From positions 12,873,846 to 12,937,845 of the forward strand of contig OZ023267.1 of assembly GCA_964006375.1 (NCBI GenBank): a DNA stretch of 64,000 nt. The letters run 5' to 3'. The notes beneath the pieces are model-generated. The model worked only from the letters and a program-made list of their open reading frames with translations, searched no databases and was not told where the DNA came from. Shown one piece after another: positions 2,640-58,639 of the stretch. Both the position numbers and the translations under genes were made by a program. The DNA comes from Tillus elongatus (Eukaryota > Arthropoda > Insecta > Coleoptera > Cleridae). The first letter of the stretch is position 1, and each line of letters starts with the position of its first letter.

Positions 2640-4015
2640 TTTAATTTTTTTTAAATTTCAACAACACACCACGAGGGCTTACAGCCTAAATACTACCGTA
2701 CCGTGGGTGTCGACAAGGAGGAAAGAGGCAACTTGTTAATTCTGGACTTGAAGGTTTGGAGGTTCGGGGGAGAAGAAAAACATGTGCCGGCAAGGAGTTC
2801 CACAATTTGGAAGTCCTCGGGACAAAAGAGCGGGCATAACAAGATGTTCTATGTCTGGTGACCTGGACAGTAAAAGGGTGCATTCGCTCTGTTCCCCTGG
2901 TAGATCTCTTGGGGGCAGCAGGTGGAGGAACTATGGAAGAAAACTCCTCTGAGCAGTGCCCATGCAGATATCTATAAAAGAGAGAGAGGTCACCAACGGC
3001 ACGTCGGTGGGCAAGGGATGGCAGCCTTAGGGTAAGGGTAGGTTCACCGATGAGACGTATAGCTTTCTTTTGAATGGAGTCCAGGATAGCGAGTGTAGAA
3101 GCGGCAGCAGCACCCCAGATGTGGGAGCAGTATTCGAGGTTTGGTCTTATTTGTGAAGTATATAAAGTATAGAGATTAGCTGGTGAAAAATATTTGCGAG
3201 CCCGGAAGAGGAAACCTAATTTCTTAGCAGCCGCTTCTGCAATTGATGTGACATGTTGGTGCTAATTGAGATTTAGATCCACAGAGATGCCAACAAGTGA
3301 AAAGGACTCATTACTTTGAATAACTTGGTTGTTTATTGTGATGGGTCTAGGGCTGGTGTATCTCTTATGAGAAAGAAAGCAAGACTGTGATTTGGTGGGG
3401 TTGAATTGTAAAAGATTTCTACTTCCCCAGTCTAATATTTTTTGGAGATACACGGAGATAGAACCCTCCATGAGTCTGCGATCCTCATCTAGTTGGGCTA
3501 AAGAGACAGGCTTAGTGTATTGTATATTGGAGTGGAGGGTGCTGTCGTCCGCGTAACTGTGAACTGGGTTGGATGTGCTAGAGAGGAGGTCATTGATGTG
3601 GAGAAGAAACAAAGTAGGGGCTAAAGCTGAAACTTGAGGAACTCCTGCATTAATTGGATACAGTTTAGAGGAATGGCCATCCACGACAACAGAAATGCTC
3701 CGGTTGGAGAGGAAATTTGCTGTACACGTACAGAGTTTTGGTGGTAGGCCATAGGCCGGTAGTTTATTAAGCAGCGCTGCGTGCCAGACCTGGTCGAATG
3801 CTTTGGATATGTCTAGAGCGACAATCTGGGATTCACCGTGTAGTTCCATAGACTTGTTCCAAGAATGGGTGACAAAGGAAAGGAGGTCGGCAGTTGATCT
3901 GCGCTGACGGAATCCATACTGCCTGTCGTGGATTAGACTGTTTTTCAAGAAATTTTAGCAATTCGGTGTTTATATACTTTTCCATCACTTTAGAGATGAC
4001 TGAAAGGAGAGAAAT
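2640..4015 (-). pseudogene. non-LTR retrotransposon relic (CR1-like), RT and 3' end
   Basis: Minus-strand translation shows a reverse transcriptase: RQYGFRQRRSTADLL, VALDISKAFDQVWH, AGVPQVSALAPTLF and HSYADDSTLHS with the YADD catalytic box. Further downstream is the family's C-terminal block ARSFVPRTSKLWNSLP, ending near 2686, followed by a short 3' tail. The 5' part (endonuclease, early RT) is missing and reading frames are broken. The upstream edge at about 4015 abuts a hammerhead family B repeat. Fragments of the same family occur at 33303, 50055 and 59525. Placement in CR1-like elements is by motif resemblance. Confidence 0.85.
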
Positions 4016-4145
4016 GTGAAAACTGGAACCTGTGATGAACACTGATAAGTACACTTGGAGAACTCATATCACCAGAACACATATTTCAAAGACCTTACGA
4101 TCGTTTCGCTAACCACGTCAGCGTCATCAGAGGATGAAAACATTA
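4016..4145 (-). repeat. hammerhead family B repeat unit
   Basis: A copy of the roughly 130-bp interspersed repeat that starts (plus-strand view) with GTGAAAACTGGAACCTGTGA and ends with the ribozyme motif and GAGGATGAAAA. Other copies lie at 19.2-19.8, 21.7-22.0, 23.3-23.6 and 39.7 kb. Confidence 0.8.
4088..4140 (-). ncRNA. hammerhead ribozyme motif, family B, intact core
   Basis: On the minus strand: CCU, CUGAUGA, an extra C, stem II GCUGAC/GUUAGC with loop GUG, GAAA, and a self-complementary stem III ACGAUCGU. The cleavage triplet is GUA, and AGG pairs with the CCU to begin stem I. All core bases are present. Activity is inferred from structure only. Confidence 0.65.
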
Positions 4146-4788
4146 TAAAGTTAAAATCAACAGCTACTGTGTATTTATATCGCACATAGGTAACGAACTA
4201 ATCCGAAGTAAAAATTGCAGTCGGCGAACCATCGCCTGTCTATTGTCAATATTGAACGGACGAGGTCGAAGAACTACCCCAATCTTCTGGTTAACAAATT
4301 TATGAGCTTTTATCTACTCTAAGGATAATGGGCTTAAAATGAAAGGTACCGAAATATTTAAGGAAGCTACCCGTTCTTTTTGATTTAGAAATTTCACTAT
4401 GTGAATATTGGAGCAACTAAAGAAAGCCGACAAGCACATCTGGCGAACACACCAATAATAGCCGCTCGTCTTTAAAAAAAAAACGAGTGTTTGGCTCACA
4501 ATATTAACTTTAACAAAGGATACATAATTCAAGTAAAATTCTACATAAAAACAAATATTTATATTGATTTTTAATTCTACGTAAAAACAAGTATTTATAT
4601 TGACTTCTTAGATACAAAGAAAACGAAAGGGGGTCTTTAAGTGGCAAACCAAACGTAGAGCCTAGTATCTCTATTGACCGGCCGAGTTATTGACAATAAT
4701 TTATTATTCTGCCAGACAAATTAGGAGTGTTTAGTTGGTCAAATGCAAAGTGAAAATAAAGGGCTTGAAATTAAAGTTGCCGCACGAT
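4146..4788. other. no gene seen
   Basis: AT-rich sequence between a family B repeat and a Penelope-like relic. It could be untranslated or decayed parts of the Penelope-like element, but no motif supports that. Confidence 0.4.
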
Positions 4789-6047: not shown

Positions 6048-6231
6048 CCAAATATCGTAGAGACAATAGAGGTCGCTGGCAAAACAAAAGAAGCTCAGAA
6101 ACAAAATGGACAACAGGTTCAACTCTTAAGCTTAGAAACAATGGTTGGTTACAGGTTCAATTCCTTTCTCCACGTGTTTAGTGTCATGTTACTCGTCTAA
6201 GTAAGCAGAATTAAAAAATGGCGACTAAAAT
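6048..6231. other. Polinton spacer, no gene
   Basis: Sequence between the left inverted repeat and the 217-bp tandem repeats, with no supported gene. Confidence 0.5.
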
Positions 6232-7392: not shown

Positions 7393-7954
7393 AGCAAAGC
7401 AAACTCTATAAGCATATTCAATAAAAATGTTACTTCCGGTAGACACTTCCGGTATAGCTATTCTTAGAGCTACATACATGTGTGACACATCAAAATAATC
7501 GTCTTGTTGAACAGAAGAAATATAATATTTAAGTAAGTTAGAACAAGCTGTATTAACACCTAAAACCAACACACACTCTCTTGTACAGGCTGATTACCCT
7601 GCCATCCAATTGTTAGTAAGGTTATGTTTGTATTTGTTATTTGAATACAAACAGACATAATAAGAAGAGTGTACTTACATACAGCAAGACACGTCATCCT
7701 TGTTTCACGACTTAACACATACTGAACAAGTGTCTCTCTCTCTTGTATTGAGGAAACAAACTGATGTAAGAGAGAGGGGGTCTTACAAAGGATAAACAAC
7801 GTTTTTTACAGTTGTTAACCTTACAGAAAGGGGTTAATAAAAATGCAACAAAATAAAAATAAAACAACTGATTTACATACAATAAAAATTTATTAGGATT
7901 AATTAAGTTGTACATATTGATACATAAATGACATACATAAATGACATACTATTA
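7393..7954. other. Polinton left spacer with 3' processing signal
   Basis: No gene is supported; the small frames here lack family resemblance. TTTATT at 7889-7894 is AATAAA on the minus strand, about 60 bp past the capsid stop codon, and is a likely poly(A) signal for the leftward transcripts. Confidence 0.5.
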
Positions 7955-9160
7955 TTACATAATGGCTCTAACGATACCCGTTAGAGGTTTATATTCCATT
8001 ACACTGTCATGAATAACCAAACAATAAACACGAGTATTTTTTGGGAAGTTGGCGTGACTCATGAACTCCACCTTAATGTCCACCGTTGAAGACTTGATTG
8101 ACTCGTTCTGGTGCTGACAGTCAATCACAAATAGAGCTCTGTCTTTAAACTCGTCATAATTCAAGATAGGCTCCGACATGTTTTTATAACAGAAGTTTTT
8201 TTGAAAATCTGTATACATGTTATAGGCTTCTGCATATTTCGATTTCTCAAAATCCATATTCATAGATTCATAAGGGTAGCATTCTGAATTTAGAAACACT
8301 CTGAGGTCCAACATACCAATGTTATCGAAATAGTCTGACCTCTTCTTCACGTTATCCTTACGATCTGTTTGAAATGCTATAATCACATATCGAGGTCTTT
8401 CCAAGTTGGTTGCAGTTTTAACAGCCCACACATCTCTGTTGATATCTCTGAGTGCTGGTAACTCATATATGTCCCATTTGCGGTATGCGAGAAATATAGA
8501 GGTGTCTTTGGCTATTTTATCCATCAGTTCCAATTTCATTTTATCATTGGGAAATACATGTTTTACCTTTAAAAACATATTGGTTACGGTAATTTTTGCT
8601 CGTGCCGTACCTGTGCTGTAATAGCCGTTGGAATCGTTTCGACTTCTTGTAAAGCGGAAAGTATGTTTGCCACAGAGAACTCCTTTGAAATGATGAAAGA
8701 AACTGAAGAGGAACCAGACAGGTATGAGCATGTGAAACTTGTTATCATTTAAGGTGATGTGCTCCGACGACACATTCAGACCGGCGTTGCTAAGAGATTG
8801 GGCTTCATTCTTACTGAACGATAGCAGACTTTTGATGATGGTTGTGGTGTATGGGTCTCGCACTCGTTCCACTTCCTTGTTATTTAACTCATAGGTCATT
8901 GATTCAAACAGAGCTGCTCCTCCATTATTTGACAGATAACAAGCACCAGTGGCATTTTGGATTGCTACAGGTTCCAGAGCACCTTCGATTATTAGAGCTG
9001 ACTCGGCCAGACATACGAACGCATCTTGTTGGTTGATGGCTATTTCAATTTCATCGCTGTTACCAAACGATTTAGTTGGTGAATAGTAAGAACGCAGCTC
9101 TTCTCGATCGATGCCATCATCAAACACGGGTTCTTTGAATATTTCTAGTTTTGACGACAT
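7955..9160 (-). CDS. Polinton major capsid protein (double jelly-roll)
   Basis: A 401-residue protein beginning MSSKLEIFKEPVFDDGID. It resembles the arthropod-Polinton proteins annotated as double jelly-roll-like, whose trimers build the icosahedral shell. Recognisable blocks are LRSYYSPTKSFG near the N-terminus, ALFESMTYELNNKEVE, and the aromatic-rich tract SECYPYESMNMDFEKSKYAE. The frame extends upstream to 9253, but a TATA box (9257-9264) and initiator (9228-9233) put the transcription start near 9231, so the first ATG in the message is at 9160. The gene lies 122 bp downstream of the minor capsid gene on the same strand. The frame is intact. No fold can be read directly from sequence, so the assignment rests on family resemblance and context. 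Confidence 0.85.
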   Translation of the reverse strand: MSSKLEIFKEPVFDDGIDREELRSYYSPTKSFGNSDEIEIAINQQDAFVCLAESALIIEGALEPVAIQNATGACYLSNNGGAALFESMTYELNNKEVERVRDPYTTTIIKSLLSFSKNEAQSLSNAGLNVSSEHITLNDNKFHMLIPVWFLFSFFHHFKGVLCGKHTFRFTRSRNDSNGYYSTGTARAKITVTNMFLKVKHVFPNDKMKLELMDKIAKDTSIFLAYRKWDIYELPALRDINRDVWAVKTATNLERPRYVIIAFQTDRKDNVKKRSDYFDNIGMLDLRVFLNSECYPYESMNMDFEKSKYAEAYNMYTDFQKNFCYKNMSEPILNYDEFKDRALFVIDCQHQNESIKSSTVDIKVEFMSHANFPKNTRVYCLVIHDSVMEYKPLTGIVRAIM

Positions 9161-9227
9161 GATAACCCAGGCTTTGCAGGAACTCAATATTATCGGGACG
9201 AAGCGTACCCTTTGACGTGTCTGACTC

Positions 9228-9264
9228 AACTGAATTTGATGTGGTAGATGCACTTGCTTTTATA
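9228..9264 (-). promoter_or_regulatory. major capsid promoter: TATA box plus initiator
   Basis: On the minus strand TATAAAAG (9264-9257) is followed about 30 bp later by TCAGTT (9233-9228), the arthropod initiator consensus. The spacing is canonical for RNA polymerase II. The promoter fits the short gap before the minor capsid gene and decides the capsid start codon. Confidence 0.75.
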
Positions 9265-9282
9265 TCCTTGAAGACCAACATA

Positions 9283-9993
9283 CTAAGCAACTTTTATAAG
9301 TTTTAAGCGAACAGACACCTCTTCACCTTGAAAGTTGACAGGAACTGAATCTTGGTCGACGATGTCGATGCTTATATTGGAAATCTCTTGCTTGTTCACC
9401 GGCAAGTAAATTAAATTTTTAGGTTCTATGTCGATTGCGTAGCCAGGATCAACCATCGGAGCAAACTCATACAGCGTATGTGAGGGTTGTCCGTTATAAT
9501 AGGAACCAGACACAATATTGGTTTCGATGCGAATCTGTCTAACATCCACTATATCAACAGGTAAATCAGATTCATAAAAGGTGTCCGGCTGAAGAACTTG
9601 TTTTGAAAAGCCCAACATTCGCCCAATCGAACCATCAAATTCAAAACTGACATTTGTATAACACTTTAGTCTACATTTGATGGTGTTCGGATTAGGTCTC
9701 AGAATCAGAGCCTGTTGCTTTTGTTCGTGTGTTGCTGTAGCACCAACAAGTTCATTTTGAAGTAACTCTTCCAAGTGTGTTATTTCATAAGCACCGGTGG
9801 GTATCGTGATGGTTCGCCAACCGGTTCCTTCTTTTACATGAAATTTGTTTTTACCTTCATAGATGTTGGGTATGTTGTTGTAGGTGTGAAAGCCTATCAA
9901 GGCAACAGCATAATTACCATCCAAAACAATTGGTGGATGGTAGTCTGACGACAGATGGGAGCTGCGGTCTTTCAACACAAAGGTGTGCGCCAT
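9283..9993 (-). CDS. Polinton minor capsid / penton-like protein
   Basis: A 236-residue protein starting MAHTFVLKDRSSHLSSDYHP. The pattern PPIVLDGNYAVALIGFHTYN, followed by NKFHVKEG and TITIPTGAYEITHLEELL, is characteristic of the single jelly-roll minor capsid (penton) protein of arthropod Polintons. A glycine- and phenylalanine-bearing block SIGRMLGFSKQVL lies near residue 125. It should form the pentameric vertex capsomer alongside the major capsid protein encoded immediately downstream. A TATA-like AAATAAAAG and a TCAGT word lie just upstream of the ATG, implying a very short leader. No disruption is seen. Confidence 0.85.
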   Translation of the reverse strand: MAHTFVLKDRSSHLSSDYHPPIVLDGNYAVALIGFHTYNNIPNIYEGKNKFHVKEGTGWRTITIPTGAYEITHLEELLQNELVGATATHEQKQQALILRPNPNTIKCRLKCYTNVSFEFDGSIGRMLGFSKQVLQPDTFYESDLPVDIVDVRQIRIETNIVSGSYYNGQPSHTLYEFAPMVDPGYAIDIEPKNLIYLPVNKQEISNISIDIVDQDSVPVNFQGEEVSVRLKLIKVA

Positions 9994-10009
9994 GACTGAT
10001 ACACACAGG

Positions 10010-10462
10010 CTACTGTTTAAGGCTTTTATTTAAAAAATTTAAACATAAGTGACCACAATTATAAGTATTATATTTCTGATACACATCATGATTGTACATT
10101 AGAGTAGAGTCTTTAAGGTAACGCTGCAGCTCAACTGGTGGCTTCAAGTTTCCATATGAGTCAAAGTACACGGCTGTGTCACCACGTTTCTTAACTGCAA
10201 CCCAATGACTGCCAGGTTCCTTGTTTGTTTGCAAATTCATGATAAGTGATTCATTCTTGCGTGGCCCATTCGATGGCAAAGTATCTCGCATGTATACACC
10301 TCTAAAATATGGAATTTTCATTTTACCAGCAAATTTCATAAGGTCTTCATTTGTTAGAGGTCTTGCTGGTAAACATCTTACTCGTTTTTTGGTTTCTGCA
10401 GATACAACCCATAACCGGAGCGCTGTTTCTTGAGATACATGCCTTTGCCCAGTCTCTTGCAT
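10010..10462 (-). CDS. adenain-like cysteine protease
   Basis: A 150-residue protein of the adenovirus-protease (C5/Ulp1-like) type used in Polinton virion maturation. The triad can be placed as His86 (GSHWVAV), Asp101 (VYFDSYG) and Cys136 (YNCGHLCLNF), with Gln129 seven residues before the Cys, the adenain oxyanion-hole spacing. The conserved N-terminal block RPLTNEDL is followed by IPYFRGVYMRDTLP. The first Met (10462) gives an 85-bp overlap with the upstream pVI-like gene. A later Met at 10339 would remove RPLTNEDL, which the family keeps, so the longer form is chosen, with some doubt about the exact start. Confidence 0.85.
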   Translation of the reverse strand: MQETGQRHVSQETALRLWVVSAETKKRVRCLPARPLTNEDLMKFAGKMKIPYFRGVYMRDTLPSNGPRKNESLIMNLQTNKEPGSHWVAVKKRGDTAVYFDSYGNLKPPVELQRYLKDSTLMYNHDVYQKYNTYNCGHLCLNFLNKSLKQ

Positions 10463-10911
10463 TTTGGCTTAAATTTCAAGCCACTCCCTCTCCTACCCAT
10501 CGCGATGGCTTCCATTGTTTTGTTGTGCCGTTCTTCCTCCTCTAGTTTCTGTTTCGCAGACTTGGCATCGTTCACGGCTTTGGCAATACCTGCAGCACCA
10601 CCACCCAGAGCTCCTAGTGCTGACAGCCCACCAAATATCAGAGGCAACAGCGGAAGGAAGCCTCCACTTTTAGGTATTGGAATAACTCGAGGTTTCTGCA
10701 CATTCTTACGTCCACCAATGTTTCTAACGATTGTATGAGCTATATCAAATACGGCGTTCGCTGTTGGAATAAGATTTCTATCTTTTACAACTTCCTCAAT
10801 CAGACTTAGTATGTTTTTAAAGGGAACCTTCTTCTTTGGCTTCGAGTTGATTACATAAAACCCCTCATCAAGTTTTCTGTTAACTTTCATGGTGTTTGTA
10901 ACGCCCCGCAA
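10378..10911 (-). CDS. Polinton pVI/PX-like hydrophobic basic protein
   Basis: A 177-residue protein. After a basic N-terminus and a helix-like stretch (about 33-66) it carries a glycine-rich hydrophobic segment (84-111, GGFLPLLPLIFGGLSALG). A charged helix (117-137, KLEEEERHNKTMEAI) and a basic tail with two similar motifs, GKGMYL and GYGLYL, follow. Arthropod Polintons encode such a protein next to the protease; it is compared with adenovirus pVI or pX, which are membrane-active or DNA-binding and cleaved by the protease. IFGG followed by L and LGGG followed by A fit the adenain cleavage pattern, but the composition makes chance matches likely. Met8 is an alternative start. The role is inferred. 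Confidence 0.65.
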   Translation of the reverse strand: MRGVTNTMKVNRKLDEGFYVINSKPKKKVPFKNILSLIEEVVKDRNLIPTANAVFDIAHTIVRNIGGRKNVQKPRVIPIPKSGGFLPLLPLIFGGLSALGALGGGAAGIAKAVNDAKSAKQKLEEEERHNKTMEAIAMGRRGSGLKFKPKCKRLGKGMYLKKQRSGYGLYLQKPKNE

Positions 10912-10974
10912 CGTTTCAGCAAAACCTGTATCTGTCTTTGTTAATAACAGCCCTCACTCTGTGACACCAACATG

Positions 10975-11048
10975 CATACTGACTGGGTGTCTCACTTGCA
11001 TTCATATATATACACACCCAAATAAAATATAGTTTAGTTTAAGTTAAG
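10975..11048. promoter_or_regulatory. divergent promoter between structural genes and ATPase
   Basis: A single ATATATATA run (11004-11012) sits between the divergent pVI-like and ATPase genes. On the minus strand a TCAGT initiator (10982-10978) lies about 25 bp beyond it. On the plus strand the ATPase ATG follows 37 bp later. The shared TATA run could serve both directions. Confidence 0.5.
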
Positions 11049-11744
11049 ATGCGTACCAGCAAACACGCTTCTGCCTTACCCATTACAAATATAGACGATG
11101 TTGTTACGGACACAGCTCAACAACAACTGAGGCATGGTCCTCTCTTTCCAAACACCGTTCGCTGTATCATATGTGGTCCCAGTGGGTGTGGTAAAACTAA
11201 TGTCATGCTGAGTTTGTTGTTTGAAGCAAACGGTTTAAAATTTGATAACGTGTATGTGTATTCAAAGTCTCTGTATCAACCGAAATACAAGATGTTAAAG
11301 GAGGTGATGAATGCAACAAAAGGTGTTGGTTACTATCCTTATAGAGAAAACGATGAAATATTAGATCCGGCAGATGCCAAGGACAACTCTGTGTTTATAT
11401 TTGATGATGTAGCTTGTGACAAACAAGATAAAATAAGAGCATACTTCAGTATGGGCAGACATAAGAATATTGATTCATTCTATCTCTGTCAAACATATAC
11501 ACGAATACCCAAACATCTGGTACGTGACAACACCAATGTTATTGTGTTATTCAAGCAAGATGAAACCAATTTAAAACATGTGTACGACGATCATGTGACC
11601 ACCGATATGGACTTTAAACAATTTAAAACTATCTGCCACCAATGCTGGAAAGATAATAAGTATGGTGTGTTGGTGATTGTGAAGGAAAACGATGTACACA
11701 AAGGTCGATATAGAAAAGGATTCGATAGATATATATTATTCTAA
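11049..11744 (+). CDS. A32-like genome-packaging ATPase
   Basis: A 231-residue FtsK/HerA-type ATPase of the Polinton/poxvirus A32 group, expected to pump DNA into the capsid. The Walker A motif GPSGCGKTN spans residues 43-51 and Walker B VFIFDD residues 115-120. FSMGRHKNIDSFYLCQTYTR carries the downstream sensor glutamine (Gln148). The C-terminal half contains LFKQDETNLKHVYDDH and ends KGFDRYILF. Length is normal for the family and the frame is uninterrupted. It opens the rightward gene set. Confidence 0.93.
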   Translation: MRTSKHASALPITNIDDVVTDTAQQQLRHGPLFPNTVRCIICGPSGCGKTNVMLSLLFEANGLKFDNVYVYSKSLYQPKYKMLKEVMNATKGVGYYPYRENDEILDPADAKDNSVFIFDDVACDKQDKIRAYFSMGRHKNIDSFYLCQTYTRIPKHLVRDNTNVIVLFKQDETNLKHVYDDHVTTDMDFKQFKTICHQCWKDNKYGVLVIVKENDVHKGRYRKGFDRYILF

Positions 11745-11767
11745 CAAACGATGATAGACAGGACAGT

Positions 11768-11970
11768 CAGCTGTCTAACACAGGTGTCTAACACAGATGT
11801 CATACAGGTGTCTAATACAGCTGTCATACAGCTGTCTAACACAGCTGTCTAACACAGCTGTCTAACACAGCTGTCTAACACAGCTGTCTAACACAGCTGT
11901 CTAACACAGCTGTCTAACACAGCTGTCTAACACAGCTGTCTAACACAGCTGTCTAACACAGCTGTCTAAC
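11768..11970. repeat. 13-bp tandem array (CAGCTGTCTAACA)
   Basis: About 15 copies of a 13-bp unit fill the gap between the ATPase stop and the next gene. The first few copies vary (GGTGTC, GATGTCATA); the later ones are identical. Each carries a CAGCTG E-box palindrome. The homogeneity points to recent slippage or unequal exchange. Confidence 0.92.
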
Positions 11971-11986
11971 AAGACAGCCAGACATC

Positions 11987-13162
11987 GTGATAAATAAGAA
12001 GGCATGTACCATGAAGGAGTCAGTATATGTTAAACCACCACACAACCTGTATCGCTCAAACAAATTATTAGACCAGCTGGTAATACCGACCAGTTGTAGC
12101 ACAATGGAAGTACTGGGTAAGGAAGAGCGAAAAGTTAAGAAAAGGATTTTACAACTTGCTGACAATATTCGAAAAAAACATTTAATGCTTAAACTTAACA
12201 GAGCCGAGAATGATGATGCTCTGCAACGTTTATATAAACCACTTGTTGAGCCCCTAAGTGAAATATCTAAAAACACAGCAGCACAGCAGCAGCAGCAGCC
12301 CCAGCAACAACCAAAGGCTGAACAAATCAAAGAAGAAGCGGTACCAGAAACGAAACCCCAAGTACAGTTCCTTAAAGACCATGAAGTTTTTGAAGCTGAA
12401 CCTAGGGAAGAGGCTGAGGAGACAAGTTCCGATGAGGATATCCCAACATTTGAAGAGCTTGAGGCAGACCTACAAACTGTCACATCCAACCCTGCATATC
12501 AAGAATTTTTGGAGCAATATCCTGAACGAGTTCGATATTATGTAGACAAGTATTTTACTGAACCACCAAGGCTCGCTACCATTGATCAAACGTATGGTGC
12601 TCGCTACGCTAAAGATACCGGTAGCTGGAGTCTTGGCAATAAACACTTTGATTTTACTGATAATGATATTCGACTAGGTCAACGGAGATATCCGCAAACA
12701 CAAGGTCTGCTAGAATTGATATTTATGAAAACACCTAGAGGGTATACCTATGACGATCTTCAACACTATAGAGATATTCTAGAAGCAACTAGTGTGCATA
12801 AAATGAACTATGATCCTAACGCACGAACCAAGGGTTGTTCCTCTGAAAAGTATCTGACTCTAATAAAACCGGTGATAAATCCACGAGGTCGTAGATCCTC
12901 AACTCCTCAAGGTTTTGGTTACGACACACATCATAACGCAGAACAAAAAACTGAACCTAGAGCTCAGAATGTAAGCAGCAACACTAACAACTATATGCTA
13001 CAAAATAACAAACAAATAGAATATGTCTATTGGGATGACATAAATGAGCTGGTTGATAGACTTAGACTTTTAGTAGCTTCCCAGGCTGCTGGTAATAATG
13101 CTCATAACAATGAAATTCAGTCAATCATTGAAGAACTGAAGGAGGTTGGTGTTATCGCCTAG
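11987..13162 (+). CDS. Polinton DUF8207-type protein, function unknown
   Basis: A 391-residue protein. The N-terminal third is charged and predicted helical (KEERKVKKRILQLADNIRKK), with a glutamine run near residues 98-107 and an acidic stretch (EEAEETSSDEDIPTFEELEA). The central part has the family blocks YGARYAKDTGSWSLGNKHF and GLLELIFMKTPRGYTYDDL. The C-terminus has YVYWDDINELVDRLRLL, ASQAAGNNAHNNEI and IEELKEVGVIA, a signature I associate with arthropod Polinton proteins (DUF8207). A basic PRGRRSST patch precedes it. No enzymatic motif is seen; a virion or DNA-binding role is only a guess. Met9 (12011) is an alternative start. Confidence 0.75.
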   Translation: MINKKACTMKESVYVKPPHNLYRSNKLLDQLVIPTSCSTMEVLGKEERKVKKRILQLADNIRKKHLMLKLNRAENDDALQRLYKPLVEPLSEISKNTAAQQQQQPQQQPKAEQIKEEAVPETKPQVQFLKDHEVFEAEPREEAEETSSDEDIPTFEELEADLQTVTSNPAYQEFLEQYPERVRYYVDKYFTEPPRLATIDQTYGARYAKDTGSWSLGNKHFDFTDNDIRLGQRRYPQTQGLLELIFMKTPRGYTYDDLQHYRDILEATSVHKMNYDPNARTKGCSSEKYLTLIKPVINPRGRRSSTPQGFGYDTHHNAEQKTEPRAQNVSSNTNNYMLQNNKQIEYVYWDDINELVDRLRLLVASQAAGNNAHNNEIQSIIEELKEVGVIA

Positions 13163-13211
13163 TATACCTACATATATCACAGACATACCTACCTTAATGC
13201 TTAGTATAAAA

Positions 13212-13661
13212 ATGTCTATCGATAAGTTCGGACGTTCCCAATCCAATAAAGGTTCTAAGTTTAAAATTATTGAAAGAGAGATTTTCCCAAGAACTGATAG
13301 TGGTGATTTTGATTTGCAAAGCCATAGATTGTGTAACATAGCTGATCCAGTCGATGCAACAGATGGTGTAAATAAAAAATTTGTTGATGTATGGATAGAC
13401 GACTATCAGAAGAACAAAGATGAGGTAAAACAAAGAATCATTGCCATACTACTTGAAGCTGTACACAAACCTGAGTTGGAAGATTTAAAAAACGAATTTG
13501 AAAATAAATTGAAAATTTTAGCTAAGAACATAACTGCTCAAGTTTTAAAAGATGTTGATGTGTTAAAGAATAATAAGCTAAAGAATAAGCTGGGAGAAAT
13601 AGACAGCAAACTAAAAGATTTACATGATAAGTGGATACTTTTAAATCCAACATCACCATGA
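13212..13661 (+). CDS. Polinton fibre-like protein, small
   Basis: A 149-residue protein beginning MSIDKFGRSQSNKGSKFK. The block DSGDFDLQSHRLCNIADPVD, followed by ATDGVNKKFVD, matches a motif found in Polinton proteins often compared with viral fibre or tail-spike N-termini (a G-D-x-D, RLCN, DAVN pattern). The rest is lysine-rich and helical (residues about 60-140). The frame extends upstream to 13146, overlapping the previous gene; Met at 13212 is preferred because MS(V/I)DKFGR is the usual family start. Role inferred from resemblance. Confidence 0.6.
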   Translation: MSIDKFGRSQSNKGSKFKIIEREIFPRTDSGDFDLQSHRLCNIADPVDATDGVNKKFVDVWIDDYQKNKDEVKQRIIAILLEAVHKPELEDLKNEFENKLKILAKNITAQVLKDVDVLKNNKLKNKLGEIDSKLKDLHDKWILLNPTSP

Positions 13662-13677
13662 GACGCAAAACTGTTGA

Positions 13678-13821
13678 GAGGAAGAACTACAAACGACTAA
13701 ACAAACAGACATCTATCTGGTTGAACGCATCTTGAGGAAGAAAGGCAAGCAGCTCTATGTAAAATGGCTGGGTTTTGATAAATCTCAGAATTCTTGGATA
13801 AATTCAGATGATGTTAAATAA
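13678..13821 (+). pseudogene. chromodomain remnant, likely from Polinton integrase
   Basis: An open stretch ending at TAA (13819-13821) encodes IYLVERILRKKGKQLYVKWL, then GFDKSQNSWI, a clear chromodomain core (Y-x-V-E-x-I ... Y-x-V-K-W-x-G ... N-S-W). A TGA at 13675 blocks this frame upstream. An ATG at 13658 in another frame gives a short basic peptide ending TSIWLNAS, so a frameshift may separate the start from the chromodomain. Polinton integrases carry a C-terminal chromodomain, and no catalytic core is present here. A stand-alone small chromodomain protein with a frameshift is the alternative. Confidence 0.65.
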
Positions 13822-13847
13822 GCTTATATATTTAATGTATTAATGTA

Positions 13848-13890
13848 CTTAGAATAAAATAAAAGTCTTTATTAAAATAATGTTATTTTA
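13848..13890. terminator. convergent poly(A) signals
   Basis: AATAAAATAAAAG on the plus strand and TTTATT/TTATTTTATTTT (AATAAA on the minus strand) overlap between the rightward genes and the leftward KilA-N gene. Both transcription units probably end here. Confidence 0.6.
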
Positions 13891-13930
13891 TTTTTTCATC
13901 TGGTTACATACAATTAAGCTAAGTGAACAA

Positions 13931-14869
13931 TTACAATTTATATCGTAAATCAATAATATCCTGAATAAACTTCTCCTGAGGTACATCTGCTATCTGTAGA
14001 TCGTTTCTCTTCGCCTTGAGGTATTCGACTTCGGTCTTTATTCTGTTAAAGAGATTTACAGAATTTGGATCATACAACATGTTTAAAACTACTTCGGAAT
14101 CAGGGTGTTTATTTTTAAAGTTCTTGACAGCTCTTTTAAAACTTTTCTTCTGAGTCCTTACAGCATGATATGGATAGGTAGTATCCTTCTCATTTCTTGA
14201 AAGCAAACCAAAAACACAAAGTTTTCCAGGGTTGCTTGGTTTTGGAGATATATCTTCTAAATGTTCTGTGATTTTAGCATTTGTTTCTCGCATACGCTGC
14301 ACTTCATCATCTATCTCCATTAATTTCACTTCAATTTCTTTGAGGTTATCCTTGTATTTTTGATTAAATTCACTTACGAAAAAATCAAAAATAATTTGGT
14401 TGCACTTTTCATAGAAACTATTGGATATCCAACAAGCCAAATTTAATATCAAATCTTTACAGACATATGTACCAGATATCAAGTTGTTTTCAGTCTGTGT
14501 TCCACCAAAGTCCACCAAGTATGTAGCGGTTGTAGGTGTTAGTTGAGATGTTGCTTCCAGCACATCTAGGGGGCCGGAATTCCGGCCCCCTAGATGTGAC
14601 TCTAAGTGGACACCTTCGGTTGAAATATTTAGGTAATCGGTATTCTGGCTACCTAAATGTTTCTTCGCCTGACCGTTGTAATAGGTAATCAACTCTTTAG
14701 TTTTCTTATTTTCCAACCAATGTCTGAATCTTTTCTCACCATCTTTACACAGCTTAGTCGCATTAAAATAACCAGTGTTTTTATCAATAATTAATTGAAA
14801 GTCTCCAAATAAACCATACCAGAAGTTGTCTTTAATTTGCTGGTAGCACACATCATTTAATGTAGCCAT
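13931..14869 (-). CDS. KilA-N domain protein with viral-type C-terminal domain
   Basis: A 312-residue protein from MATLNDVCYQQIKDNFWYGL. KilA-N blocks appear as NTGYFNATKLCKDGEKRFRH (about residues 31-50) and, after an insert, YVCKDLILNLACWISNSFYE (about 147-167). A coiled-coil-like segment follows (KEIEVKLMEIDDEVQRMRE). The C-terminal domain (VFGLLSRNEKD, YPYHAVRTQKKSFKRAVKNF) resembles the DUF3627-type ends of insect poxvirus and baculovirus-like proteins. KilA-N proteins bind DNA; the exact role is unknown. The longer frame to 14995 is set aside because a TCAGTT initiator (14914-14909, minus) lies just upstream of the 14869 ATG. A 38-bp palindrome interrupts the insert region. Confidence 0.85.
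   Translation of the reverse strand: MATLNDVCYQQIKDNFWYGLFGDFQLIIDKNTGYFNATKLCKDGEKRFRHWLENKKTKELITYYNGQAKKHLGSQNTDYLNISTEGVHLESHLGGRNSGPLDVLEATSQLTPTTATYLVDFGGTQTENNLISGTYVCKDLILNLACWISNSFYEKCNQIIFDFFVSEFNQKYKDNLKEIEVKLMEIDDEVQRMRETNAKITEHLEDISPKPSNPGKLCVFGLLSRNEKDTTYPYHAVRTQKKSFKRAVKNFKNKHPDSEVVLNMLYDPNSVNLFNRIKTEVEYLKAKRNDLQIADVPQEKFIQDIIDLRYKL
14561..14598. repeat. 38-bp perfect palindrome inside the KilA-N gene
   Basis: CACATCTAGGGGGCCGGAA is followed directly by its exact reverse complement, with GAATTC at the centre and no spacer. A second inverted repeat (ATTTAGGTA ... TACCTAAAT) lies at 14627-14658. Both are translated in frame. Confidence 0.95.
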
Positions 14870-14995
14870 TTTTAAACACACTACTGAGCACTTGGATACG
14901 TTAGAGTTAACTGAAGCACGTCTTACCTCTACGATAACTAAATTTTGAATGAGTTTAACAGTGTGTAGTGAACAATTTATAGATGTTGATACCAC

Positions 14996-15189
14996 TATCG
15001 TTTGAAGCTGTATTTATTAATATTTATTTCCAACCACATTAGTTTTGTTTCTGAACTTCCTTCTTTTGTTTGCCAACGACCTCTGTGTGTTATTTTTAGA
15101 ACCTACCCATATAACAATTGTGGCGTTCGGCTAATTTCTATGCGAAATCTAATAGTCTGTCTAATATTAAACATATTAATTATTATGTC
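14996..15189. other. Polinton right spacer, no gene
   Basis: AT-rich sequence between KilA-N and the right inverted repeat, with no supported gene. Confidence 0.5.
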
Positions 15190-16150
15190 TTATGTCTAAT
15201 AACAAAAGCTTTATGAATGGTTTGTTTTAATGGGGGGCGTAACTTTCAATCATGGAGTCTTCGACCAATACCATTATTCTCGCTTATCAACCTCACTCTC
15301 ATTTGTCGGCTCTAAAGGTTGGGGTGACGTAACTTTAAATAATGGAGTCTTCAACCATCTTTATCAGCAAAAGGCACCATCTTTAAGAACGAAAGCCGCC
15401 ATTCTTTATCAGCGAAAGGCACCATCTTTAAGAACGAAAGCCGCCATTTTTTATAATGTCAGGGATGTCAGCTTAAGGTATCACAGGTTAGACCGCCATC
15501 TTTCATTCCGCCATTTTTTTTTTATTCCGCCATTTTGGTTCCTCCGTTTTGGTTCCGCCTCTAATATTAAACATATTATTATTTTGTAAATCATCCATTT
15601 GTCTAATAATAACAAAAACTTTAATTATGTTACATGTATGGTTTGTTTGTAATTAAAAGTCGTATATATATACTAGCCTAAAACAATAAATTAACAAGCG
15701 TCTGCTTAGCTCAACGGGTAGCATCGTTGCCTCCCATCTGAGTGCCCGGGGTTCGAAACTCACCTGCTCCAAATGGTTTTTTTCAAAATATAATAATTTG
15801 AAGTAATAGGTTAGACACTTTGAAATGTTTGCATGTGACTGTCTGGCCCAAGTCATGTGACGTCACTGTCTGGCCAGGATATTAAATGCCTCGAGCAAGA
15901 TAACCACTGAAAAATAAGATCTTGGAGACGACCTGGCCAAAGTTTCCTAGACAGGTCAATGACCTTCAGGTTACATTGGAAGCCATCTTGGACGCCATCT
16001 TGGGGGCGTGGCTGGACGCCGGGGCGTGGCTGGGCGCCGGGGCGTGGCCACAAGGGGTGGGACTAGGGGTGGGGCTAGGGGAGGGGGTACCCCCACTCCT
16101 ACCCCCACTACCTGTGACGTCACTGTCTGTCCCAAGTGTCGCAATACCTA
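15190..16150. repeat. Polinton right inverted repeat
   Basis: Reverse complement of 5101-6047 with few differences, including an extra ~12-bp CCACCCC unit near 16060. Long frames within it are mirrored in both copies and are not considered genes. Confidence 0.93.
15699..15770 (+). other. tRNA-like block in right inverted repeat
   Basis: Same block as at 5471-5541: box A-like TAGCTCAACGGGTAG at about 15707 and box B-like GGGTTCGAAACTC at about 15749, directed toward the element terminus. Confidence 0.55.
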
Positions 16151-19330: not shown

Positions 19331-19533
19331 AATGAAATTGGGAAAGGCTGACTTCTGTTGGCAAGACTTTAGAAAAGCTATATGTGCACCTATTAATCGT
19401 GTTTTAGTACTTAAGCTTCGATAAAGATTCAGCTCCGTGGTCCTGGGAACCGTAATTTATTCAGTGAAGATTGGAACCTGTGATGAGCACTGATAAGTAC
19501 ACTTGGAGAACCCGAATCAACACAACGCATTTT

Positions 19534-19590
19534 TTAAAGACTTGACCATCGTTTCACTAACAAAGTAAGCACCATCGGAGGATTAAGAAT
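19534..19590 (-). ncRNA. hammerhead motif, family B, degenerate
   Basis: The core is CCGAUGG and stem II is eroded. It is recognisable only by alignment to its neighbours. Confidence 0.35.
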
Positions 19591-19610
19591 TCTTAGATAA
19601 TATTCTTGAA

Positions 19611-19663
19611 GAATTTTTCATCCTCTGATTACGCTAACTTTGTCAGTGAAACGACCGTCAGGT
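19611..19663 (+). ncRNA. hammerhead motif, family B, mutated
   Basis: CCU precedes CUGAUUA (G8 changed). Stem II GCUAAC with partner GUCAGU, GAAA, then ACGACCGU, cleavage triplet GUC and AGG. Confidence 0.5.
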
Positions 19664-19680
19664 CAATAATATTCTCGTAG

Positions 19681-19735
19681 AATTTTTCATCCGCTGATGA
19701 CGCTAACTTTGTCAGGGAAAGGACCGTCAGGTCTT
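19681..19735 (+). ncRNA. hammerhead motif, family B, core kept
   Basis: CUGAUGA and GAAA are intact and the triplet GUC and AGG are present. Stem II has a mismatch (GCUAAC against GUCAGG). It lies 69 nt after the previous motif in the same orientation. Confidence 0.55.
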
Positions 19736-19892
19736 TAAAAGATGTGTTATGGTGATTTGGGTTCTCAAAGTCCACTTATTATAGAAGTAATTGTTATTCC
19801 AAATCTAAAATTATGGCCAACTGATTTGTCAGGAGTGTCGGTGATGTAGATTTCTTGAAGATGCAAGGCTAATATAACATTTTAAAAATTTC

Positions 19893-21300: not shown

Positions 21301-21709
21301 CGAATTATTTGGCAGATAAAGATATTGGAATATGCTACTTATTTATGAAATTTATGCGGCATACGTGCACAAACAACACCTCTTATATAATGCATTCTGT
21401 ATAATTATAAATTGCAAGAAATAAATAAATAAAATAAACAAGTAATAAAAAATAAAATAAAATATGTAAAACTCAAACGCGTATTTAAACCGTCTTTTTT
21501 TGAAACGAAACTTTTAATTTTTCATTTTGGCAATACTAATCTATTGCCCAGACCCATGTCAAAATTCAAAATGAAATAGGTACCTACCCGCAGCCGGAAA
21601 AATATAAATTTTTCTATACTGGTAAGAAAAAATAAAGCTACTCAATTAATCAAAGCTCATTAGTAAAACAGTCGACATTTGAACATTGAGTTATGACTTT
21701 AGCTTACCA
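21301..21709. other. no gene seen
   Basis: AT-rich sequence with no supported feature. Confidence 0.4.
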
Positions 21710-21840
21710 CGTGAAAATGGGAACCTGTGCTGATCACTGATAAGTACACCTGGACAACCCAAAGAAACACAACACATTTGTAAAAACCTGACGAGCGTTT
21801 CACTAATAAAGTTTACGTGATCAGAGAATGAAAAAATGTT
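21710..21840 (-). repeat. hammerhead family B repeat unit
   Basis: Full-length unit. The ribozyme segment (21782-21837) reads CUGAUCA with otherwise similar stems, so it is probably inactive. Confidence 0.65.
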
Positions 21841-21894
21841 CATCAAAGCTCATTATTGTAATAATCGACAACTGAAAACTGGTTGATGACGATA

Positions 21895-22045
21895 GCTAAG
21901 TGAAGATTGGAACCTGTGATGAGCACTGATAAGTATACAAATCAACACAACACATTTTTTAAAACCCGATGATCGTTTCACTAATAAAGTTAGCGTCATC
22001 AGAGGATGCAAATTTTTTCCTCTGCTGACCTTTGGGTTCTCCAAG
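21895..22045 (-). repeat. hammerhead family B repeat unit
   Basis: A second unit in the same orientation about 185 bp further on. The ribozyme segment at 21961-22012 keeps CUGAUGA and GAAA. Confidence 0.7.
21961..22012 (-). ncRNA. hammerhead ribozyme motif, family B, core intact
   Basis: CCU, CUGAUGA, C, GCUAAC/UUAGU stem II with a wobble, GAAA, stem III CGAUCAUC region with an AUC triplet, then GGG. All catalytic core positions are present. Confidence 0.55.
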
Positions 22046-22134
22046 TGTACTTATGACCATACTGTTTTGATTTTGTATTGTATGGGTTTTCTTGTGCCAT
22101 GATATATTACTTTTTCCAATAAACATTGTCAAGG

Positions 22135-22372: not shown

Positions 22373-22487
22373 ATTTTTTCAATACGATATACAATAAAGA
22401 GTAACACAAGTCGGAAGCAACTGCATTGATAAAAAAATTCATTTACCTTGAAAGTAAACTATAAATAATTATAACCAGAACATTGTG

Positions 22488-22660
22488 AGATGTACGACAG
22501 GGTCGCCATCTCGGTGCCGAACCAGGTAGTTGTCACGACAACTTAAAATAACACAAAATGTTATAAAATAGAGACTGTGTACAACCAACGAACAATTTTG
22601 TAAATTCTCAGCCCTGGCCCATCTCTTCCCTAATATAGGGACAATGTATGTAAGGCTAGA
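22488..22660 (-). repeat. retrozyme-like monomer, family A, reverse copy
   Basis: Reverse complement of the 22677-22790 body plus the post-ribozyme segment (CTAGCCTTACAT ... AGGGACAATG). Its own ribozyme is truncated. It forms an inverted pair with the forward copy to its right. Confidence 0.75.
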
Positions 22661-22676
22661 ATTGCTAGTTGGTTGT

Positions 22677-22920
22677 ACACAGTCTCTATTTTATAACATT
22701 TTGTGTTATTTGGAGCTGTCGTGACAGCATAATACCTGGTTTCGCACCGAGATGGCGACCCTGTCGTACATCTCACAATGTTCTAGGAGGCTGGCTACCA
22801 TAACCGTATTACTTTATAGGTTTGTTCTCACTGTAATTAGTATACCGTACTGATGAGCTCTAATTAGAGCGAAACCGGTCTGCGGTCCTAATTGTGGTGA
22901 GAATACATCTAGCCTTACAT
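22677..22920 (+). repeat. retrozyme-like monomer, family A, forward copy with ribozyme
   Basis: Contains GGTTGTACACAGTCTCTATT, GAGATGGCGACCCTGTCG, GGCTGGCTACCATAACCGTA and then the hammerhead, in the order seen at 58.38-58.60 kb. Confidence 0.8.
22834..22894 (+). ncRNA. hammerhead ribozyme, family A, intact
   Basis: Stem I is ACCGUA/UGCGGU plus UAAUUAG/CUAAUUG with an internal loop, and extends to UUCUCAC/GUGAGAA. The core is CUGAUGA, stem II GCUCU-AAUU-AGAGC, GAAA, stem III the self-complementary ACCGGU. Cleavage triplet GUC, predicted cut after 22880. Every universally conserved hammerhead base is present. Compared with the 58-kb copies, stem I keeps pairing despite substitutions (A-U here, G-U there). 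Confidence 0.85.
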
Positions 22921-22984
22921 AATTATAACCATCTATTTTTTGTATTTAACTTTTTTTAGAACACATAATTGTTACTACACTTAC

Positions 22985-23185: not shown

Positions 23186-23399
23186 CTGGAATAAATGAAA
23201 ACAAAATTGGTGAATCAAAATTAAATAGCATCTGTAAAAGGCGTATTCTTCCCAATACAACTGTACGAGTTGAAATAATCAGATATCTGCATGTGTTCCG
23301 TTACATAATTGCTTGGTAAAACAGTGACTGAAGATCGGAACCTGTGATGAGCGCTAATAAGTGAAATTTTGACAACCCAATGCATCACAATACAGTTTT

Positions 23400-23450
23400 C
23401 AGACCTGACGATCGTTTCGCTAATAAAGTTAGCGTCATCAGACGGATGAA
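23400..23450 (-). ncRNA. hammerhead ribozyme motif, family B, core intact
   Basis: CUGAUGA, C, stem II GCUAA/UUAGC, GAAA, stem III ACGAUCGU, triplet GUC and AGG. Stem I begins less perfectly (CCGU before the core). Confidence 0.6.
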
Positions 23451-23462
23451 TAAACGTAGAGT

Positions 23463-23515
23463 TGAATTTTGTGATGACGCTAACTTTGTTAGAAAAACGA
23501 TCGTCGGGTCTGAAA
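23463..23515 (+). ncRNA. hammerhead motif, family B, degenerate
   Basis: The core reads GUGAUGA and the GAAA segment is altered (AGAAAAAC). Stem III ACGAUCGU and GUC are kept. Confidence 0.35.
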
Positions 23516-23857
23516 ACTTTATTGTGATGAAGTGGGTTCTCCAAATTGTGCTTGTTGGTAAAACTGTTTAACATCAAAACATAAGCAGCTATTGTTTGCT
23601 GAGGTTTCGCAGTTCTGATTTACTATCTACTGCTCCCCGAAATCTTCAAAGCCTTTTTTAGAACCAGATATAAATTTCGATATTGTCATAGGGGCGAAAA
23701 AATTGTATTAAGTTTTTTGATAATGATCATACTATAGTAGTACTACTACTAGTAGTAGTAGTAGCAATTGTGGAGCGGCTAAAGCCTGGCAAGTAGGCCA
23801 CAACGGACCCTTTTTGCGAAGCCCGGCAACCCAGCAACCATACCCGACTCCACCGCC

Positions 23858-39689: not shown

Positions 39690-39830
39690 TTTTATAGAAT
39701 TTTTCATCCTCTGATGGCGTTGACGTGGTCAACGAAACTATCGTAAGGTCTTTGAAATATGTGTTGTGGTGATTTGGGTGTTCTCCAAGTGTACTTATCA
39801 GTGATCATCACAGGTTCCAGTTTTCACATA
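39690..39830 (+). repeat. hammerhead family B repeat unit
   Basis: Full-length unit ending ATCACAGGTTCCAGTTTTCA. Confidence 0.8.
39697..39756 (+). ncRNA. hammerhead motif, family B, covarying stem II
   Basis: Stem II is GUUGAC/GUCAAC here instead of GCUAAC/GUUAGC, so both strands changed together. GAAA, the GUA triplet and AGG are kept. The core reads CUGAUGG (A9 changed), so this copy may be inactive. Confidence 0.6.
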
Positions 39831-39836
39831 GGGTAC

Positions 39837-55404: not shown

Positions 55405-55578
55405 GAAATAGTTGGTTGTATACAGTCTCTATTTTTTTAACATTCTGTGTTATTTGGAGCTGCCGTGACAACATACTACTTGGTTCCGCAACTAGGTGGC
55501 GGCACATGCTTCGTGTCTTACATCTCACTTAGTGTTGGAAGGCTGGCTACCATAGCCGTATTACTTTATAGGTGTATC
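55405..55578 (+). repeat. retrozyme-like monomer fragment, family A
   Basis: Matches the 58.38-58.52 kb body (GGTTGTATACAGTCTCTATT, TACTTGGTTCCGCAAC, GGCTGGCTACCATAGCCGTA). It stops just before the ribozyme position, where a non-LTR relic begins. Confidence 0.75.
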
Positions 55579-56770
55579 CGATGCAATATTGGGCGGCAGA
55601 TCATTCATATAGACGATAAAGAGTAGGGGCCCCAAATGGAACCCTGCGGAACACCACACTCTACCGTCATCTCATCGGATAGCTGTTTATCCTAATAGAC
55701 AACCTGCCTCCTATCCTCCAGGTAACACCCAAAGAGAGAGAGGGCTGTACCTCTGACACCATAATGTCCCAGCTTCCCCAACAAAATACACTTTGAAACT
55801 GTATCAAAGGCCTTACTCAGATTACAAGCTACGACTTCAACATTATTTTTTCATGAGTCCTCGGCAATACTCATAACAATTTCGGTCAAGGCTGTGTCTG
55901 TTGAACGTTTGGGTCTAAAGCCATACTGGCGCGGATCTAATATCTTGTATCTTTCAATAAGTGCCAGCAACCTTCTCTTAAGGAGCTCTTCAAATATCTT
56001 TGATAGAATCGGAAGTAGCGAGATAGGCCGGTAGTTGTCACAATCATCCACATTGCCACCTATGTATTGCAATTACTTTTCCCAGCTTTAACTTTTTAGG
56101 AAAGTTGCCTTGGATCATACACTGGTTAAGCACCTCACACAAACAGCTAACTATGATAGGAAATACTTGCCTTAACAATGGAACTGTCATTCCATATATA
56201 TCAGATGAGGGCTTATTTTTAAAATTTTTCACAATGTTAGTCAGTTCTTCATTGGTTGTTGGGTACAAAAACATGGTGTGCAGTTTTCTATTCTTTTTGT
56301 TATGTAGCATACCCATAGCCTCCTTTACTGAGCGATCAAGGCTACTAGACACATTTATACCGACACTTGTAAAATGATTATTAAGTTGATTCGCATTAAG
56401 AGCAGTTTCCAAGTTTGAACAACGTCGCTTGCCTCTCTCTTTGTTGATGATCGTCTATACAGCTTTAACTTTATTGTATGCGGCATCAATATATTCATTA
56501 TTCCTTCTTTTGACTTCACTTGTGTATGTTTCTCTCATTTGCTTCTTAAGTGTGGCCAAGAATTGTCTTGAGTTCTCAGGTCTAATTACCCTATCAATTA
56601 CTTGAGCTGAATCCACCAGCATTTGTCGCCAAGTGGTACTTTTTTTCTTCGGAAAGGAAAGCTTGAAGCACTGCTCAATTGTGTCATGTATATTGTCAAA
56701 TGATTTTTCCGAATTTTCTTTCAGCAGGATTGTCCAATCAATTTTTGACAGTTCACGTTTAAACCTACCA
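55579..56770 (-). pseudogene. non-LTR retrotransposon relic, second family (Jockey-like)
   Basis: Minus-strand order: VKRRNNEYIDAAYNKVKAV, ALNANQLNNHFTSVGINVSS, NEELTNIVKNFKNKPSSDIY, DNYRPISLLPILSKIFEELL, ILDPRQYGFRPKRSTDTAL, NLSKAFDTVSKCILLGKLGH, VECGVPQGSIWGPLLFIVYM. These are the linker and first half of a reverse transcriptase. The frame breaks at several points (near 56050 and 55850) and ends before the YxDD box. It differs from the CR1-like family elsewhere in the window. Confidence 0.85.
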
Positions 56771-57970: not shown

Positions 57971-58240
57971 ACTTCCACACGTATTGACGACGTGGAAGTA
58001 ATTTTAATTTTAAAACACGTGTTTGAGAAGGAAACATATTAAGTGATTATATTGTTTAATTGTTTCTCAGGTTTCCTTAGCAACTGAGGATAAAATTACA
58101 AAATTTAGCTACAAGTGCCAACTCTTTGTAGGTACTATTGCTAATGATAACCTTTTGAAATATTATTAAGTATATGTATTTACAAAATAAAAGTCTGGTT
58201 GCGCGCGTTATGGTATTGAATTTTCATAACAATATTTTTT
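57971..58240. other. spacer with (TA)-linked repeat end
   Basis: GCGCGTTATGGTATTGAATT at 58203-58222 is the recurrent repeat end; it directly abuts the retrozyme-like pair. Confidence 0.5.
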
Positions 58241-58246
58241 TCGCTG

Positions 58247-58307
58247 CAATTAGTATGCCGTACTGACGAGCTCTAATTAGAGCGAAACCGGTCTGCGGTT
58301 CTAATTG
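58247..58307 (+). ncRNA. hammerhead ribozyme, family A, first of tandem pair
   Basis: Stem I CAAUUAG/CUAAUUG plus GCCGUA/UGCGGU around an internal loop, core CUGACGA, stem II GCUCU-AAUU-AGAGC, GAAA, stem III ACCGGU, triplet GUC. Predicted cut after 58293. All conserved positions are present. Confidence 0.87.
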
Positions 58308-58526
58308 TGGTGAGGATGCATCTATCCTTACATACTTTGTCCCTTTATTAGGGTAGAAATGGGCCAGGGCTGACAATTTACTAAATTGTTGTATACAGTC
58401 TCTATTTTTTAACATACAATACTACTTGGTTCCGCAACGAGATGGCGGCACTTGCTTCGTGTTCTACACTTAGTGTTGGAAGGCTGGCTACCATAGCCGT
58501 ATTAGTTTATAGGTGTATTTTCGCTG

Positions 58527-58587
58527 CAATTAGTATGCAGTACTGACGAGTCCTAATTAGAGCGAAACCGGTCTACGGTTCTAATTG
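58527..58587 (+). ncRNA. hammerhead ribozyme, family A, second of tandem pair
   Basis: Same fold. The core CUGACGA and GAAA are kept; stem I now reads GCAGUA/UACGGU (one G-U pair became A-U, one mismatch gained). Stem II is weakened (GUCCU against AGAGC). Predicted cut after 58573, exactly 280 nt after the first. Confidence 0.75.
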
Positions 58588-58639
58588 TGGTGTGAGTTGC
58601 CCTTGAAAAAATGGTGGGGGTAGTTCGTATAACATTTTT

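Follow-up and report, generated by a model that had tools for sequence, protein, structure and literature searches.

Two hammerhead ribozymes lie in the same orientation within the 64,000-nucleotide stretch of Tillus elongatus DNA analysed here (the window). This pair raises the question of whether the locus is itself a source of circular RNA, and the wider question of which enzyme copies the circular RNAs of animal retrozymes into DNA. Metazoan retrozymes are small non-coding tandem repeats with type I hammerheads, present in many copies (PMC7229834), and Penelope-like elements (PLEs) are considered strong candidates for mobilizing them (PMC7229834; also proposed in PMC7761336). In work with a purified PLE protein, the enzyme cut both strands of the target and extended them, with internal starts at two adjacent sites (PMC11167929). 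Penelope insertions display inverted repeats, 8-10-bp duplications and, optionally, a tail on one inverted end (PMC3846280).

The hammerhead pair of the window

The features of the window are collected in Table 1. The hammerhead pair lies in a 75-nt direct repeat (58238-58312 and 58518-58592, 95% identity) with an offset of 280 nt, in agreement with the same-orientation spacing given by the first-pass annotation. Both copies contain CTGACGA...GAAACCGGTC and, as also annotated, ACCGGT. In copy 1, stems I and II are formed (-23.4 kcal/mol, z -3.68), whereas the lowest-energy structure predicted for copy 2 differs from a hammerhead (z -1.05); copy 2 keeps 4 of 5 pairs in inner stem I and likewise 4 of 5 in stem II. 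The proposal of two complete hammerhead folds thus holds for copy 1 and fails for copy 2. Because copy 2 has a broken pair in each of these stems, the locus was called decayed. Base changes between the copies had been said mostly to keep stem I paired. Within inner stem I this is true of one change (U-G to U-A), but another breaks the pair (C-G to A-G).

When the whole window was compared with Rfam at gathering scores, no family reached its cut-off. At permissive settings, copy 1 matched HH9 (28.1 bits, E 1.9e-4; the HH9 gathering score is 52 bits) and copy 2 matched Hammerhead_1 (20.3 bits, E 0.093). Covariance models, proposed by the annotation as a check, therefore do give matches, but all are sub-threshold. 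Nine matches to a loose core pattern were counted in the window, against 0.88 expected from shuffles. The GC content of the unit is 0.418. The longest stop-to-stop frame overlapping 58238-58600 has just 65 aa, consistent with the annotated lack of a protein; the retrozyme encodes no RVT or GIY-YIG protein and is thus not itself a PLE. A search of phage records gave no match.

The release of an exactly 280-nt circle from 58294-58573, predicted earlier, is not supported: copy 2 is damaged, and 280 nt was found in only 1 of the 41 hammerhead spacings below 400 nt, 23 of which fall at 315-321 nt. Other tandem copies do exist, with plentiful spacings of about 318 nt, but the 280-nt spacing is absent from the other loci examined. 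It is therefore most improbable that the window unit is itself an active source of a 280-nt RNA circle, even though copy 1 is intact and the spacing and orientation fit. The outer ends of 58238-58593 match neither of the two family end sites described below (sites A and B), and no target duplication was found there. The locus is a worn copy, in which the hammerhead pair is real and the second ribozyme is damaged.

Table 1. Retrozyme and PLE features of the window.
Feature	Position	Strand	Description
Decayed retrozyme copy	58238..58593	+	End of one unit, then one 280-nt unit, then ~20 nt
Hammerhead copy 1	58246..58310	+	Intact core and stems; predicted cut after 58293
Hammerhead copy 2	58526..58590	+	Intact core; one stem I and one stem II pair broken; predicted cut after 58573
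Unit between predicted cuts	58294..58573	+	280 nt (family unit ~318 nt)
Second retrozyme insertion	22478..22919	.	Head-to-head; a minus part precedes a plus part, which has the hammerhead
Third family hammerhead	22833..22897	+	Core and stems intact; absent from the first-pass annotation
Retrozyme fragment without hammerhead	55409..55587	+	Unit positions 97-275
PLE pseudo-LTR with hammerhead-like motif	4013..4758	-	Ends near PLE site 2
Head-to-head PLE ends	19457..19781	.	Site 2 reached by the minus arm and site 1 by the plus arm; duplication score of just 6
Head-to-head PLE ends	21703..22056	.	Minus pieces extend to site 2 and the plus arm to site 1
Head-to-head PLE ends	23325..23553	.	Minus arm ends at site 2 and plus arm at site 1; TTGGTAAAAC is duplicated
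PLE end with hammerhead-like motif	39701..39834	+	Reaches site 2

A cluster of frames was also observed at 5615-15589 of the window, including an ATPase-like one (GPSGCGKT, 11043-11744) and a KilA-N-like one (13931-15013), both named by eye. The cluster sits between mirrored repeat copies (5615-6034, minus; 15203-15589, plus), and mirrored tandem arrays are found in the same region (5783-5879 and 15358-15454). This is possibly a Maverick/Polinton-like element.

Family and insertion anatomy of the retrozymes

A 31-nt hammerhead core pattern with five variable positions gave 3,486 exact matches in the genome searched (1.72 Gb, 30 contigs) and 0 for the reversed control; a first DNA search, in which the best 40 of 2,534 candidates were scored, gave at least 58 matches. 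The unit plan is one of tandem repeats and not of LTRs. Type I hammerheads, small GC-poor non-coding tandem repeats and thousands of copies bear out the retrozyme-like character assigned in the annotation. Copy number, unit size, GC content and the absence of a protein fit, at the sequence level, a metazoan non-LTR retrozyme. The family shares with these elements type I hammerheads, tandem non-coding repeats within 170-400 nt, a GC content below 50%, a high copy number, duplications that exceed 4 bp and coexistence with PLEs (PMC7229834). The observed spacings, mostly 315-321 nt and 280 nt in the window, also lie inside the range of about 150-450 bp expected of such small repeats. Plant LTR retrozymes are likewise non-autonomous RNAs bounded by hammerheads, but have type III hammerheads in LTRs, a PBS, a PPT and 4-bp duplications (PMC7761336, PMC7229834), whereas here the hammerheads are of type I, the unit plan is not that of an LTR element and duplications are longer.

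The sample consisted of 39 loci and the window, and comprised 48 arrays or fragments after removal of two near-duplicates. Two loci, L016 (near-identical to L014) and L026 (near-identical to L025), were left out of the 48-array, hammerhead, arm-distance and private-variant analyses and kept in the 49 flank tests. The members of each pair lie on one chromosome, ~272 kb (L014/L016) and 60 kb (L025/L026) apart, and are apparently segmental duplications. Four of the 48 "arrays" (L010:5862, L031:4216, L042:3298 and window 216) are pieces of a longer repeat and not retrozymes. This repeat (>1 kb) contains retrozyme unit positions 38-187 followed by its own sequence (pieces at window 216-371, L010:5862-5937, L031:4216-4290 and L042:3298-3441), and may be the donor or the captor of these positions; it is a possible partner of the retrozyme.

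The core is intact in 66 of the 101 hammerheads found, and 35 of these also retain every pair of inner stem I and of stem II; the tally accepted up to 7 substitutions, and lost hammerheads escape it. Units mostly differ by 3-15% within and between loci, and no very young copy was found among the loci examined. In 90 distinct hammerhead copies, 91.4% of cells were paired, against a shuffled mean of 90.8% and maximum of 91.3%, and double changes numbered 9, equal to the shuffled maximum of 9, giving no clear covariation.

The head-to-head form was found in 23 of the 48 arrays, and two outer ends of the 5' type in no array. The common order is minus units then plus units; small internal pieces of L024, L027 and L029 run in plus-then-minus order. 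The orientation was also assayed with cores picked irrespective of their similarity to the window copy. Among the first 100 in the list, 12 pairs of neighbours lay within 1 kb of each other, against 0.27 expected at random; 9 of these pairs were head-to-head, 3 tandem and none tail-to-tail.

The 3'-type outer ends fall mainly at two sites (52 of 71). Site A, around GCCTTA (unit positions 26-48), accounts for 24 of them and site B, around CTCACTTAGTG (unit positions 204-226), for 28; the other 19 lie elsewhere. The 5'-type ends (n=25) are scattered. One end was unclassified in 7 of the 23 head-to-head arrays, and among the 16 classifiable ones, 13 combine an A end with a B end (p 0.011), 2 are A/A and 1 is B/B.

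A flank duplication score of at least 8 was obtained in 13 of 49 tests, against 0.75 expected; in this set, the score of 10 for L020 comes from element sequence beside a TA repeat and is no duplication, and L016 repeats L014. A score of at least 7 was reached by 12 of the 23 head-to-head arrays, every one of which has one A and one B end, and by one true case (L011) among the other 25 arrays. Six later loci, the top of a search for chimeras described below, included two head-to-head and classifiable arrays, both A/B mixed, and 3 of the 5 tested scored at least 7. The second insertion of the window (Table 1) follows the same plan, with TAATTATAACCA at 22466-22477 and 22920-22931; this duplication, like the outer ends, was read by eye and had been missed by the flank script.

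The two arms of an insertion were then compared. For 19 of 50 units the nearest opposite-arm unit was found within the same locus, against a null mean of 1.4 and maximum of 6 (the two window arrays stand under one label in this test, and L029 and L040 each contain several arrays). Both arms therefore tend toward one template. The clearest one-template case is L014, with a distance of 0.042 within the locus versus 0.105 to others. Private shared variants, considered as proof of one template per insertion, proved weak: 37 were found against a null mean of 10.4 and maximum of 33, but the both-arm subset (17, null mean 4.0) is below its null maximum of 25. The arms run across the ribozyme cut site, with nine full units in L015, indicating that the template was circular or uncut and multimeric.

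Two arrays displayed further structure. In L027:2480-3701, the outer units are alike (0.086) and the inner units are alike (0.077), other pairs differing by 0.103-0.144, as if the template had been a dimeric RNA. The nine-unit array of L015:3262-6184 has uneven unit distances (0.026-0.127), which suggests that some units were duplicated later within the array.

Penelope-like elements of the same genome

PLEs were sought with the GIY-YIG profile, and all 150 places scored, the best of 14,220 candidate places, matched above cut-off. Two PLE copies have RVT_1 and GIY-YIG in one frame. The PLE pseudo-LTRs contain a motif, CTGAAGA...GTCAACGAAACGATCGTA, of which the same kind is found at window core matches 4096, 19694 and 23407. 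It is termed hammerhead-like from its core pattern and its position in the pseudo-LTRs; Rfam, run on the motif of L054 only, gave no hammerhead match. One extra base follows the core CTGANGA. PLE ribozymes are variable, and an extra base after the core is among their variations.

The PLEs also end at two sites: site 1, around GTACTTA, and ~33 nt beyond it site 2, around TTCACTTAG or TTCACATAGTG. Of 11 head-to-head PLE loci, 10 could be assigned, and in all 10 each of the two sites is used by one arm. In this tally L023 was set aside as unclassifiable, the two adjoining L037 loci are maybe not independent, and PLE1 (L049 with L050), whose left boundary nhmmer had extended too far, was assigned to site 1 on that side from its duplication; without this locus the count is 9 of 9. 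Moreover, L054, L055 and L056 had been picked for opposite-strand GIY-YIG matches, and their ends count here, not their head-to-head form. The tandem PLE L052 ends at site 1. A flank score of at least 8 was obtained in 5 of 8 tests on seven head-to-head loci, for a null fraction of 0.04. Duplications of 12, 9 and 11 bp were read by eye in L054, L055 and L056 respectively, the last two with one mismatch each.

These three loci are long head-to-head palindromes with arm identities of 96.4, 87.5 and 98.8%. Their central spacers measure roughly 30 nt in L054 and L056 and less than 100 nt in L055. From its sequence, the L056 insertion looks recent.

The retrozymes thus resemble PLEs in that their inserts are head-to-head, with duplications of around 8-13 bp, a pair of internal start sites and a hammerhead-like motif (PMC11167929, PMC3846280). 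Unlike PLEs, they are protein-free, their two sites are ~180 nt apart instead of ~33 nt, and they have no overall homology to the PLEs compared: local alignments with seven PLE ends were not above shuffles, and blastn gave noise.

A 10-mer, TCACTTAGTG, is nevertheless common to retrozyme site B, where 33 of 98 complete or partial units have it without mismatch, and to the end of PLE copy L037 at site 2. In L037 it belongs to the PLE, because the duplication adjoins it. Other PLE copies match as far as they run, over TCACTTA or TCACTTAG, the 10-mer being incomplete, and younger-looking copies carry TCACATAGTG in its place. For comparison, 23 of 20,000 random 22-nt windows contained a 10-mer of the L037 end (fetched DNA, with retrozymes and PLEs unmasked). 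Site A and PLE site 1 have CTTA alone in common.

At L036:2824-3164, a retrozyme stops at site B and is followed by a PLE end piece that extends as far as PLE site 2; the far side is bordered by a TA repeat. Judging from this arrangement, L036 may be a retrozyme-PLE chimera produced by a template jump from PLE RNA to retrozyme RNA. A nested insertion that has lost its other half is a possible alternative. In a search for further chimeras of this type, L036 was the only match over the whole query among the best 40 of 1,640 candidates.

Proposed mechanism and alternatives

The arrays follow the published PLE plan, with extension from both strands, two internal starts, inverted repeats and duplications. 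For this reason we propose, with a probability of about 0.68, that a PLE-type enzyme reverse-transcribed retrozyme RNA from both target strands into head-to-head arrays. What the genome displays is a family of tandem units with arms placed head-to-head, a preference for two end sites, as a rule one of each per insertion, duplications and the parallel with PLEs; the cleavage, the circle and the PLE identity of the enzyme are what we infer. A multimeric transcript would be cut by its own hammerheads, and the monomer would probably be ligated to a circle. A Penelope-type enzyme would then nick both target strands at a new site. The 3' end of one strand would prime at site A, just past hammerhead stem I, and that of the other at site B. 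Each cDNA would represent a partial lap up to several laps of the RNA, and joining of the two antisense cDNAs would give a head-to-head array with a flanking duplication of roughly 8-13 bp.

RNA folding may unite sites A and B at one junction. In a consensus fold of 16 units, hammerhead stem I is lengthened to ~28 pairs, and site A and most of site B are unpaired, in the junction beyond it; a both-side change occurs at 1 of 92 pairs of this fold, and its covariation term is unfavourable. A broader reading, to which we give somewhat less than even odds, is that retrozymes are RNA parasites of PLEs, which would mimic the start signal, have both nicked strands primed at once and offer a circular template for several laps.

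The arrays might instead have been moved in trans by a LINE, the inversions being ordinary L1-type twin priming. In twin priming, the start position of the second arm is variable, whereas the two retrozyme arms mostly start at two fixed sites, and those of PLEs likewise. We therefore hold this explanation to be unlikely, although LINE-like reverse transcriptase frames were recognized by eye in the window and L1 twin priming also produces duplications of similar size and inverted 5' parts (PMC2837659).

Less likely still is a fold-back origin, in which a single cDNA primes itself instead of two separate starts taking place. Self-priming is favoured for Penelope by PMC3846280, and the inner ends nearly coincide in the three long PLE palindromes (L054, L055 and L056). 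However, fold-back predicts the same end site on both arms, which mostly end at different sites, and the inner arm ends of the retrozymes are unrelated. Their mean circular distance is 81.5 nt, against 79.5 nt if uniform (KS p 0.54; 25 of 26 junctions, the second L027 junction being omitted). Short overlaps or gaps are seen at the junctions.

A satellite or fold-back DNA transposon, whose spread was due to DNA recombination or to a transposase working on inverted ends and whose hammerheads are relics, is very improbable: the uneven units of L015 and the plus-then-minus pieces of L027 and L029 do have the look of post-insertion reshuffling, but the outer ends are mostly two different sites and not one inverted terminus, and duplications flank dispersed copies.

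Mobilization of retrozymes by PLEs is an existing proposal, and the insertion anatomy is the new part. Head-to-head arrays, two outer-end sites and the use of one each per insertion set the present family apart from the metazoan retrozymes as described in the available text of the published account. Within the mostly open-access literature searched, no paper was found that describes retrozyme arrays in head-to-head form, a pairing of end sites or a start motif in common with PLEs.

Altogether, the insertion anatomy of retrozymes and PLEs provides a countable rule on ends, duplications and start motif that can be applied to any assembled genome. It also bears on PLE integration, since both families usually begin their two arms at different internal sites. 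If retrozymes are indeed RNA parasites of PLEs, a head-to-head array with one A and one B end would be a genomic fingerprint of the mobilization of a circular RNA by PLEs.
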